Positions 13,170 to 16,475 of a stretch of DNA of 64,000 nt are shown here, in pieces. The DNA is taken from contig NZ_JQGK01000002.1 of NCBI RefSeq assembly GCF_000743525.1, positions 124,001 through 188,000 on the forward strand, in the 5' to 3' direction. Source of the DNA: Sulfurospirillum sp. SCADC (GTDB lineage Bacteria; Campylobacterota; Campylobacteria; Campylobacterales; Sulfurospirillaceae). The notes beneath the pieces are model-generated. The model saw nothing but the letters and a program-made list of their open reading frames with translations, did no database searches and was not told where the DNA came from. Position 1 is the first letter of the stretch. Each line of letters starts with the position of its first letter. A program made the position numbers and the translations under genes.

Positions 13170-13451
13170 ATGAACATCAATGCTACTTCCATGACAGCCA
13201 TGTCCAACTGGATGAACAACAGCGCTCAAAATGTCGCCAATGTCAACACCGAGAACTACAATGCCACGCAAACGACCATCTCCAATCAAGGTAACGCCGT
13301 GGTTGCCCAAAGTAGCCAAACCGAAAACGGTACGGATCTAGCAACCGAATTTACCGATCAAATCGCACTTGAAACGAATTTTGAAGCCAACACCAAACCC
13401 ATTCAAGCCGAAGACGAGATGATCGGCAGCCTCTTGGATATGAAGGCGTAA
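13170..13451 (+). CDS. Miniature flagellar rod/hook-like protein (N- and C-terminal rod motifs only)
   Basis: A 93-residue protein. Residues 1-30 (MNINATSMTAMSNWMNNSAQ and then NVANVNTENY) match the N-terminal helix of flagellar rod, hook and FlgC/FlgG-type proteins, where ANVNT is the conserved motif. Residues 55-93 (TDLATEFTDQIALETNFEAN, then DEMIGSLLDMKA) match their C-terminal helix. The whole central domain found in true rod proteins of more than 130 residues is missing, leaving only a 25-residue Asn/Gln/Thr/Ser-rich linker. AAGGAG precedes the ATG. No other flagellar gene is adjacent. It could be a small axial protein or an assembly decoy; function is unknown. Confidence 0.75.
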   Translation: MNINATSMTAMSNWMNNSAQNVANVNTENYNATQTTISNQGNAVVAQSSQTENGTDLATEFTDQIALETNFEANTKPIQAEDEMIGSLLDMKA

Positions 13452-13459
13452 TAAGTCAA

Positions 13460-13588
13460 TCACCATTGTCTTAAATTCTTTTTTTGTTTGAAGATTTGTC
13501 TAATAGGATCCATTTTATCCGGATATTTGGTTACAGTATTTCTTTTGGTCACAATGTATTTAAAAGCTAGTAGTTGTGTCCTTAGCTG
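13460..13588 (-). pseudogene. Possible remnant of an unknown coding sequence
   Basis: An open frame of 42 codons between stops on the minus strand, rich in Lys/Thr/Gln, with no start codon at its beginning and no recognised family. It lies immediately downstream of the asparagine-synthetase-like gene, in the AT-rich island. It may be a broken end of inserted DNA. The rest of 13452-13647 shows nothing further. Confidence 0.2.
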
Positions 13589-13647
13589 CTATGTTGGCTT
13601 TATTTATGTTCTCTTGCTTACGTAGGCAGCATCCTAGCCTATTATTT

Positions 13648-14886
13648 TTAATCTTTTATTAACGCATATAGGCTAGCAACTTCTAGATTACGAATGTATT
13701 TTGCATTGACTTCTAAGCGCTGACTATCGATATTAAGATATTTATTGATAATAGCGTCAGTTTTACTTTTATGGAAATTAATATATTTTTTTGGATCCCA
13801 TCGTAGACCTTGATCATCTTTTCTCCAAACGACTTCATCTGAAATAATTTTATCCATTGCTAATCGTGATATGATTTTAGGAATTTTTTGATGAAATCGT
13901 CCTTCTAATTCAAGCATCATATACTTCTCTAAAAGTTTATTAAAATATGGAGTAAATGAAGAAATTCCAGATACTTCTATGTTGTTTCTTACTCTGTTAG
14001 TATCATGTTTAACACTACCACAGCATAAATTATACATATGCAAATAATCAAGATTTATATTTTTTATATTTTTATATTTTTTTAATATAGAAAAAACTTC
14101 TTTTTGTTTTATTTTTCTTAAGTTAAAAATCTGTTTTAAAAGTTTTAAATATTTACTATCTCTAAACAAAACTTGTAAATAATTTTCTTCTAAACTCTTA
14201 TAAATATTTATCGAAATAGTTTCACCTGCCATACCATGCATTAAACAGCTACCTCCATTAAATTTTACAGCCTTCCCTATGAAACTTAATGGAACAACAC
14301 CAATATTGGCTGGACCAAAATTAAGATTTGACGATTCCTTTAAAATATCAAAATCAAATTCTGATTCATAATTGACTTCTATAGTATTCAATTTGATACC
14401 CACTGAATCAGCAGATTTTTTAGCAAAGTAGTAATCATTCCCTGCAGGTGTCTTAGTTGTCCATACTCTAACCTTATGTAGCCAGTCTGCATCAGCTAAG
14501 ACAGCAAGTAAAAGAGAACTATCTACCCCCCCCGATATAACTAAATCAATATCTTTATCTTTATAATGATTAGCAATGATATTGAATAATTCCTCTCGTA
14601 ATATTGATGCATTAAAATTGCTCATAGAAATGTTCTCCAAGGGCATTTCAAGTTCAAGTTTTTCGTTTTTATTATGATTTTCAAACGTATAAGAATGAGC
14701 ATTTTTTAATAGTTCAATTCCTTCAATAAAATTTTGTCTAGTACCATTTCTTAAAAATGTTTCTATGTGTTTGGATATACAAAGGCGATCTTTAAATTCT
14801 ACTAATTTTGAGTTACATAAAACAGTATTTTCAGAATTATCATATATATAATTATAATATGCATACTGATCAACATGAAAAAACAT
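13648..14886 (-). CDS. Orphan asparagine-synthetase-like ATP-pyrophosphatase protein
   Basis: A 412-residue protein with the PP-loop SGGVDSS at residues 118-124, the ATP-pyrophosphatase motif of asparagine synthetases and related amide- or lactam-forming enzymes. The first 110 residues replace the usual glutaminase domain: there is no catalytic Cys at position 2, and the region is short and divergent. This form would use ammonia or act as an adenylating cyclase, as in beta-lactam or lasso-peptide cyclases. Base composition is clearly more AT-rich than the flanks and Asn/Ile/Lys codons dominate, which suggests transfer. AGGAGA precedes the ATG and a TATAAT lies at 14920-14925 on the minus strand. 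No precursor-peptide or protease gene is adjacent. The product is unknown. Confidence 0.75.
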   Translation of the reverse strand: MFFHVDQYAYYNYIYDNSENTVLCNSKLVEFKDRLCISKHIETFLRNGTRQNFIEGIELLKNAHSYTFENHNKNEKLELEMPLENISMSNFNASILREELFNIIANHYKDKDIDLVISGGVDSSLLLAVLADADWLHKVRVWTTKTPAGNDYYFAKKSADSVGIKLNTIEVNYESEFDFDILKESSNLNFGPANIGVVPLSFIGKAVKFNGGSCLMHGMAGETISINIYKSLEENYLQVLFRDSKYLKLLKQIFNLRKIKQKEVFSILKKYKNIKNINLDYLHMYNLCCGSVKHDTNRVRNNIEVSGISSFTPYFNKLLEKYMMLELEGRFHQKIPKIISRLAMDKIISDEVVWRKDDQGLRWDPKKYINFHKSKTDAIINKYLNIDSQRLEVNAKYIRNLEVASLYALIKD

Positions 14887-14967
14887 TTTTTCTCCTAAGC
14901 GCTATTATTCTAAGAAAATATTATAACCCAAAATACTTGTTAAATAAAGAGTTTAAGTTTGCCTAAA

Positions 14968-15004
14968 ACTCCATAAAAAGACATGAATGAGACGTTTATG
15001 GAGT
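14968..15004. repeat. 10-bp perfect inverted repeat in the AT-rich island
   Basis: ACTCCATAAA and TTTATGGAGT are separated by 17 bases. No T-run follows, so a terminator is not clear. It could be an operator or an element end. Confidence 0.5.
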
Positions 15005-15057
15005 GGAATATTATAACAGTTTATTGTTTAATTGAAAACATTGACGCTAATTAAGTT

Positions 15058-15288
15058 TTAAACTGTTGTCTCGAATTGACTACATCGGTGATTGAATATA
15101 CAAAAACTGCATATCTGTTCCCAAGAAGACATACGAGCATGAGTAAAAATCGGATACGAAAAGCCATTGGATTCCTTAACATAAATGTGTGTGTCTTTTG
15201 GACACTGCAAAGGCGGATATAAAATGGGGCTTTTCAGAGTGAATGTAATACATCTGAGGATATTAGCAGATATGTGTACAATGCTCAT
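15058..15288 (-). pseudogene. Unrecognised 76-codon open frame, possible gene remnant
   Basis: The minus-strand frame begins MSIVHIS and contains several Cys and His residues (for example CSFCIFNHRC near the C-terminus), which look like a metal-binding fragment. There is no clear ribosome-binding site and I recognise no family. It lies between the AT-rich asparagine-synthetase-like gene and queA. It could be a decayed transposase or zinc-ribbon protein, or chance. Confidence 0.25.
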
Positions 15289-15455
15289 TAGCCCCCGCTT
15301 TGAGAAAATAACATAATTTTGATGCGTATAGTGTGATATAAAAGTGGTATTTTATTCGTTATAACCTTAAATCTTATAACGATAGATATTATTTTTTATA
15401 AGATAATGAGAAATTATGAATAAATATTCAATGAAACAGCGTCGTAAACTTAGTT

Positions 15456-16475
15456 TTAAACGATTAGCATCGCATCACCGTAAGAAAAGAAACGGTACTG
15501 CTCTTTTACGGCCTCTTCGTAGAGTTCAAGTGTTTTTTCAATCCCCACAAATGAAGCTACTAGCATAATCAATGTCGATTTGGGAAGATGAAAATTGGTT
15601 AAGAGATGGTTGACACGAAGAGGGGGATTTTGCGGATGCAAAAAGAGGTCGCATTTTCCTATAGGCTCTTTGGTTCTGGCAAAATACTCCACTGTTCGTG
15701 TGACCGTTGTTCCCACCGCTAAGATGTTTTTTGGGCTTTCAATGCGTTTACATGTAAGTTCTGGAATGGCGTAAATCTCGGAGTGCATCACATGATTGTG
15801 AATGTGTTCGGCTTCGACGGGTTTAAACGTTCCTGCGCCTACATGTAAGGTTAAAAAGTGAGTTTCGTAACGCTTTTTTAACGCTTCAAACATCGCATCG
15901 GTAAAGTGCAACGAAGCCGTTGGTGCAGCCACAGCACCTTGCTCTTTGGCAAACACGGTTTGATAATCCACGCTGTCTTCATCAGTGTCTTCGCGTTTGA
16001 TGTACGGTGGGAGTGGAATGTGTCCGATTTTATCTAACACAGTAAAAAGCACTTGGGTGTGCAGAGGTTTTTCTGCTTGAAAAAAGGCAACAACACGCGT
16101 ACCGTCCTCTTTGAGTTCCATAATTTTGGCGTGCATTTTTTCATCAAAAAAGAGCTTGGTTCCTACTTTGACACGACCTCTGATGTAGACCGAGTAGAGA
16201 TTGTCTTGCAAAGGAGCGTTCAGCAGTACTTCAACCTCTCCGCCGCTCTCTTTTTTCCCAAAAACACGTGCTTTAATGACTTTGGTGTCATTGAGAAGTA
16301 CGGCAATGTCTAAGGGTAAAAAGTCAAAAAGGTGTTTGAAATGGGTGTGTGTGATGCGACCACTTTGGCGATCAAATACCAAAAGCCTCGCCTCATCCCT
16401 AGGTTCAACGGGATGGGTGGCGATCAGCTCTGGTGGAAGTGTGTAGTCGTAGGTCGATTTTAAAAGCGGGTCTAT
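15456..16475 (-). CDS. queA: S-adenosylmethionine:tRNA ribosyltransferase-isomerase, probable AUA start
   Basis: QueA transfers and isomerises the ribosyl moiety of SAM onto preQ1-tRNA in queuosine synthesis. Conserved parts are VLLNDTKVIKAR, GHIPLPPYIKR, SLHFT and LTNFHLPKSTL. The first ATG or GTG in frame is at 16382, but family-typical sequence continues upstream: DYTLPPELIATHPVEPRDEA lies between 16475 and 16382. Back to the tatC stop (TAG, 16479-16481) there is no ATG, GTG or TTG in this frame. An ATA at 16473-16475 lies seven bases after GAGGA and gives 339 residues, the usual length. I therefore place the start there. Two copies of the dispersed palindrome lie inside (15749-15756, 15840-15847). 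Confidence 0.88.
   Translation of the reverse strand: MDPLLKSTYDYTLPPELIATHPVEPRDEARLLVFDRQSGRITHTHFKHLFDFLPLDIAVLLNDTKVIKARVFGKKESGGEVEVLLNAPLQDNLYSVYIRGRVKVGTKLFFDEKMHAKIMELKEDGTRVVAFFQAEKPLHTQVLFTVLDKIGHIPLPPYIKREDTDEDSVDYQTVFAKEQGAVAAPTASLHFTDAMFEALKKRYETHFLTLHVGAGTFKPVEAEHIHNHVMHSEIYAIPELTCKRIESPKNILAVGTTVTRTVEYFARTKEPIGKCDLFLHPQNPPLRVNHLLTNFHLPKSTLIMLVASFVGIEKTLELYEEAVKEQYRFFSYGDAMLIV

Follow-up and report, generated by a model that had tools for sequence, protein, structure and literature searches.

The AT-rich island between a flagellar-rod-like gene and queA in Sulfurospirillum sp. SCADC (positions 13,452 to 15,455 of the window, the whole 64,000-nucleotide stretch of DNA that was analysed) carries a gene that is genuinely foreign and lies in a cargo site. 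Most likely it is what remains, after truncation at the 5' end, of a glycan-type gene related to asparagine synthetase B (AsnB). It is of an ordinary kind, although there is a modest chance of an active but atypical AsnB-like subfamily behind it. The transferred gene, most likely truncated, is probably losing its function, though its open reading frame is intact and has a ribosome-binding site. The locus appears to illustrate the turnover of a cargo site on the queA side, where a toxin-delivery locus was lost, an insertion sequence was inserted and cut down, and a foreign metabolic gene was left stranded. The comparison covered a single genome of the host species and 23 congeners. The features of the locus are as follows.

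13170..13451, (+): left flank, flagellar-rod-like protein of 93 aa (PF06429, 31.4 bits), a neighbour of queA conserved in the genus
13452..13647, no strand: unassigned island DNA, 196 bp; homology to the congener G007 stops at 13466
13648..14886, (-): AsnB-like ORF, 412 aa; PP-loop synthetase domain preceded by the C-terminal half of a type-2 glutaminase domain
14518..14535, (-): PP-loop SGGVDS (residues 118-123), aligned to S234-S239 of E. coli AS-B
14887..14925, (-): leader from the ATG to the IS end; AGGAG at 14892-14896, in-frame TAA TAG at 14902-14907, NIFLE codons at 14908-14922
14926..15035, (+): IS982-family element cut down to its 5' end; carries the terminal repeat ACCCAAAATACTTGTT, hairpin, transposase start MEWNIITVYCLIE...
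15056..15182, (-): stub of a TpsB (ShlB/CdiB-type) gene, first 42 codons; 93% DNA identity to the sister species G005, 81% aa identity over 42 residues
15183..15455, no strand: spacer from the TpsB stub to queA, common with G005 and part of a 545-bp, 93% match
15456..16382, (-): right flank, queA (PF02547, 335 bits; open frame of 340 codons)

The island gene was confirmed as a real open reading frame of 412 codons. The longest open frame in the region extends over 417 codons, against a mean of 76 and a maximum of 133 in 200 dinucleotide shuffles, and the 412 codons contain no internal stop, where many would be expected in DNA of 27% GC. The GC content of the ORF is 27.3%, with 38/26/18% at the three codon positions, a strong codon periodicity, while window stretches of equal size outside it have a mean of 41.9% (sd 2.2, minimum 35.9%); the initial annotation of the island as AT-rich DNA differing from its flanks is thereby borne out. 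An AGGAG ribosome-binding site is properly spaced ahead of the ATG. The PP-loop SGGVDSS, from which an asparagine-synthetase-like enzyme had been proposed, is present at residues 118-124 and, together with a score of 32.1 bits against PF00733 (cut-off 21), places the protein in this superfamily. The match to TIGR01536 reached 46.6 bits across profile positions 160-513, below the curated cut-off of 267. In the organism's own genome no second gene exceeds the PF00733 cut-off, the second match being a 471-codon frame below it; two matches to GATase_7 fall within open frames of 448 and 622 codons, which, at a guess from their size, are PurF and GlmS.

The queA gene, whose start is probably further upstream, is present in all 24 genomes of the genus. 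The gap between the rod gene and queA is essentially empty (<=141 bp) in 16 of the 23 congeners and loaded (1.9-15.3 kb) in six, and in the remaining one, G005, the contig ends inside the cargo. Judging from these sequences, the junction is a cargo site that swaps its contents between related species. An ShlB-type TpsB is carried there by G005 and G019, the latter also having a 2625-aa TPS-domain protein; G014 and G016 hold other cargo, including a radical SAM gene in G014, and G007 (L037 1862-10665) has an orphan colicin-DNase/WHH tip and a SUKH immunity protein. The G007 cargo also comprises IS110 and Mutator transposases, a KptA-like RNA 2'-phosphotransferase and transport-like genes. In G019 (L038 3917-13669, L046 1-5100) the 2625-aa two-partner-secretion exoprotein is followed by low-GC (22-35%) small ORFs, some of which have lipoprotein-like starts. 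The AsnB-like gene is absent from 23 of 23 congeners; accordingly, the suggested comparison of the locus between the mini-rod gene and queA found it at the same place in none of them (0/23), including the six other congeners with a loaded site. With the foreign composition, the variable site and the remains of an IS and of two-partner secretion, this upholds the proposal that the DNA was transferred. A link to queuosine, considered for the adjacent queA, was rejected because the rod-queA junction hosts cargo in general.

On the queA side, positions 15056-15600 (545 bp) are 93% identical to G005 and take in queA at its 3' end, the intervening spacer and the first 42 TpsB codons; the intact TpsB gene scores 260.8 bits against PF03865. 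Components of two-partner secretion were recognised in relatives as TpsB (G005) or TpsB with TpsA (G019), whereas the window has the stub only, at the position of the G005/G019 locus and with the rest deleted. Since this stub is shared with G005, the site probably once had a two-partner-secretion locus that was later deleted. A literature search on two-partner secretion in Sulfurospirillum gave only general CDI/TPS papers.

Between the TpsB stub and the AsnB-like ORF lies an IS982-family remnant of about 110 bp, whose end is 39 bp upstream of the AsnB-like ATG. Positions 14926-15035 are the 5' end of a dispersed repeat that is found again in several congeners and, in the own genome, at the ends of many contigs. 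Intact copies measure ~940-950 bp and encode transposases of 282-287 aa, which exceed the cut-off of 130 bits of the IS982 model NF033520 (164.6 and 168 bits). The window copy retains the transposase start and the terminal repeat, and positions 14926-14941 match exactly the IS982 inverted-repeat consensus AC(N)6T(N)5TT given in PMC7335449. The 10-bp inverted repeat that had been taken as a sign of transfer does exist, at 14968-14977 and 14995-15004, and forms the arms of the IS982 hairpin, but as a count it is unexceptional, with 8 perfect 10-bp pairs, of which this is the single short-range one, against 9.9 (sd 4.4) in shuffles. The fragments suspected on both sides of the ORF proved to be real on the queA side, where there are two, the TpsB 5' stub and the IS982 end, but not on the rod side, where 13452-13647 gave no usable match, and none better than E 0.02, in the 23 congeners. 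Some IS982 kin form hybrid promoters (PMC7335449); here a promoter scan found 13 against 13.7 expected, so the idea of a promoter at the IS end carries no weight. Many contigs of the own genome (C2, C3, C15, C17, C20, C23, C27, C28 and C31) have IS982-type ends at their termini, and the element therefore probably breaks the assembly.

An AlphaFold model of the protein based on a 12-row alignment was of fair quality (pLDDT 65.8, pTM 0.70), being weak at residues 37-53, 186-193, 221-232, 253-265, 271-296 and 381-412, while a single-sequence model was useless (pLDDT 33.5). The model matched E. coli AS-B with Z 19.3 and rmsd 4.6 over 300 aligned residues, beta-lactam synthetase with Z 19.2 and carbapenam synthetase with Z 18.4, the range across such matches being 17.6-19.3, so that the predicted fold is effectively tied between them. 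In contrast, a profile search placed AS-B (8.6e-29) far nearer than CarA (1.1e-6) or beta-lactam synthetase (0.15). The structure-based search that had been recommended thus left AS-B and beta-lactam synthetase level in fold, with the profile favouring AS-B.

In the structure comparison, model residues 1-395 align with residues 133-488 of AS-B. About 130 N-terminal AsnB residues are therefore missing, amounting to the entire catalytic first half of the glutaminase domain; its second half is retained. The initial annotation was right that Cys2 is absent, but this follows from the loss of the entire N-terminal stretch and is not a change at Cys2 alone. In comparison with AsnB (TIGR01536; PF13537 and PF00733; E. 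coli AS-B, human ASNS), the window protein shares the PP-loop SGGxDS, S234-S239 of AS-B being retained in the alignment, and the synthetase fold, but has neither the catalytic N-terminal half nor Cys1, and so lacks the N-terminal nucleophile Cys and complete glutaminase domain of a glutamine-hydrolysing asparagine synthase. The AS-B residues E348, D351, E352 and K449 are replaced by M, E, T and D, identically across three MAFFT modes. M219 and D358, the counterparts of E348 and K449, depart from the essential residues of TIGR01536; the corresponding residues of human ASNS are termed required or essential in PMC6748925.

The protein was searched in the own genome and in sets of 149 relatives, 396 genomes of the phylum, 397 of the order (overlapping sets) and 321 gammaproteobacteria, where 5, 4, 10 and 6 genomes, respectively, gave matches. 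The best match over these sets was no better than E 1.5e-11, and none was closer than 32%, over part of the protein; the top phmmer score, 54.7 bits, belonged to L002. No close homologues were found in the genome_contigs, viral_contigs, plasmids (E 1) or phages (E 10) collections, and a literature search found no paper on this protein type. A 32-row tree was built from the window protein and 31 of 37 candidate proteins, after dropping one duplicate, one PP-loop protein that is not an AsnB, and rows that had a broken frame, contained stops or were cut at an end; L054, without a usable ORF, was not used. In this tree the window protein joins L008 and L009 (97/94), although the program warned of meeting long branches, and a wider clade unites it with L002, L003, L052, L055 and L056 (100/99), separate from the genus's own ordinary AsnB. 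Trees were re-run with four more long-branch rows removed, followed by either L008/L009 or L048/L049. Without L048/L049 the join to L008/L009 (97/94) persisted; without L008/L009 the place of the window protein dissolved, yet it stayed outside the 18 ordinary rows. The protein thus appears to group with AsnB-like proteins of glycan clusters and, as the initial annotation had anticipated, not with ordinary AsnB, a separation supported on long branches only.

L002 and L003 adjoin, by eye, polysaccharide-type genes, and L008 and L009 sit in glycosyltransferase clusters with an ATP-grasp gene. L008 (907-2694, in G323) and L009 (907-2700, in G222) are Cys-less AsnB-like proteins of 595-597 aa, 69% identical to each other, with ATP-grasp and lumazine-binding-like genes as neighbours; among 397 phylum genomes only these two were found at high identity. 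Their dN/dS ratio is 0.10 at a dS of 1.9, near saturation, and within that limit they are apparently under purifying selection. Like the window protein, these best-supported sisters, which come from Campylobacterales, lack Cys2, have a degenerate GxGGDE motif, carry RKxxxGL[KR]W where the usual motif has Lys and have lost the K449 counterpart; they differ in their full length and their neighbours and are only 22% identical to it, with the long-branch caveat noted above. L002, L003, L055 and L056, possibly WbpS-like, have a WRxxKQGFRW region that aligns with WRKDDQGLRW of the window protein, but retain both Cys2 and the catalytic Lys.

The absence of the glutaminase seems better read as a 5' truncation next to the IS end than as the clean loss of a domain. 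The protein starts at AS-B residue 133 and keeps half of the Ntn domain, which is what a random cut leaves, unlike its virus-contig relatives L048 and L049 (314 and 302 aa), which have no Ntn remains and carry the PP-loop at residues 32-35. Upstream of the ATG the frame reads NIFLE, then TAA TAG, then RLGEK, and NIFLE is identical to L009 at the equivalent glutaminase hairpin. Adding this upstream read-through raised the alignment scores over 15 AsnB-like proteins (summed p 0.005, 2000 shuffles); for single proteins the result ranged from p 0.0025 to no gain, L009 alone giving p 0.016, L008 alone 0.11 and several other AsnB zero gain. The match may be a trace of the lost N-terminal part, suggestive and not proof; the NIFLE stretch is short. 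The neighbouring TpsB is likewise a stub.

The changed counterparts of K449, D351 and E352, together with the half domain left, are the grounds for reading the gene as a remnant in decay or an ammonia-dependent ligase with barely any activity, and not as an enzyme dedicated to making a new amide; this reading is, on the whole, the probable one. It is opposed by the open 412 codons, the two stops just upstream of the ATG and the properly spaced AGGAG. Since stops occur just upstream and none within the 412 codons, unlike in neutral decay, the codons were kept open until recently. In addition, L008 and L009, apparently under purifying selection, are also without the counterparts of Cys2, K449 and D351/E352, so that these losses need not mean a dead protein. 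At the E348, D351, E352 and K449 positions L008 has S, H, V and T, and L002 has S, D, E and K; E348 is also missing in L002, L003 and L056, which keep Cys2.

The history suggested by comparison with relatives would begin with a two-partner-secretion (CDI-like) locus between the rod gene and queA, later mostly deleted, with 42 TpsB codons left. An AsnB-like gene of the glycan-cluster kind, very AT-rich and acquired by transfer, would then have occupied the site, and the IS982-family element probably removed its first ~130 codons, the catalytic glutaminase half. The remaining 412-aa protein is still translatable from the ATG with AGGAG and is predicted to fold like the synthetase half of AsnB. 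Going by its family and descent, it would use ATP to adenylate a carboxylate and, having no glutaminase, would transfer this to free ammonia or to some other amine.

That the island brought a functional, naturally glutaminase-free amide ligase, dependent on ammonia or an amine and with a sugar acid or a small carboxylate as substrate, is possible but rather doubtful. Such an enzyme would be kin to AsnB-like enzymes of glycan clusters, for instance WbpS-type uronamide amidotransferases. The intact ORF with coding periodicity, the AGGAG and ATG, the retained PP-loop, a predicted fold matching AS-B, beta-lactam and carbapenam synthetases, and the clade shared with the glycan-cluster proteins L002, L003, L008, L009, L055 and L056 would all suit it, whereas the half Ntn domain, the changed K449 and D351/E352 counterparts and a placement that dissolves without L008/L009 do not, and no sugar-pathway or other partner gene was seen beside the ORF. 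The nearest characterised idea, by analogy, is sugar uronamide formation by WbpS, which is required for uronamide sugars in Helicobacter pullorum and Porphyromonas gingivalis (PMC6025236, PMC7468200). Fairly unlikely is a variant in which the window protein and the Cys-less L008/L009 form an AsnB-like subfamily without glutaminase, catalytic Lys or acidic motif, sharing RK..(Q/H)GL(R/K)W and performing a different ATP-dependent glycan chemistry, the half glutaminase domain serving as a scaffold in the window member.

A cyclase or amidase that modifies peptides (lasso cyclase, RiPP amidation, nitrile synthesis or beta-lactam type) seems very improbable. The AsnB relatives of lasso and beta-lactam pathways have a dead or missing glutaminase; in beta-lactam and carbapenam synthetases, which lack an active glutaminase, the N-domain is complete though inactive. 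Beta-lactam synthetase does equal AS-B in predicted fold, but it is far more distant in the profile search. The lasso cyclase model NF033535 gave 16.9 bits (cut-off 525) and the macrolactam cyclase model 15.6 (cut-off 300), and inspection by eye of the small ORFs beyond the gene revealed no recognisable precursor, leader protease or transporter. AsnB relatives with peptide substrates are described (PesC and TsrC, PMC13060819). A lasso peptide, a beta-lactam or the unusual amide product foreseen in the initial annotation is thus not supported, the missing glutaminase having the look of a 5' truncation. Equally far-fetched is a role in the former toxin locus, such as that of accessory or immunity-like cargo in a CDI-type system. 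In sister species this site does carry TpsB/TpsA, SUKH immunity proteins and orphan DNase-toxin tips, and in G019 small ORFs of low GC follow TpsA; however, the six other loaded congeners have no AsnB-like gene there, PADLOC models gave no match, and other cargo at the site (radical SAM, transposases) is unrelated.

Two further settings of AsnB-like genes were observed. L048 (5986-6930) and L049 (4099-5007), on IMG/VR contigs, encode asparagine-synthetase-like proteins of 302-314 aa without any glutaminase domain, embedded, by eye, in runs of glycosyltransferase- and methyltransferase-like genes. A phage origin of the island gene was rejected, as no phage genes were seen in the island and the protein of phage Motura, which keeps its MCG start, belongs to a deazaguanine cluster. 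This compact 426-aa AsnB-like protein (L174 18037-19317) is encoded there between queC and a tRNA-guanine transglycosylase gene.
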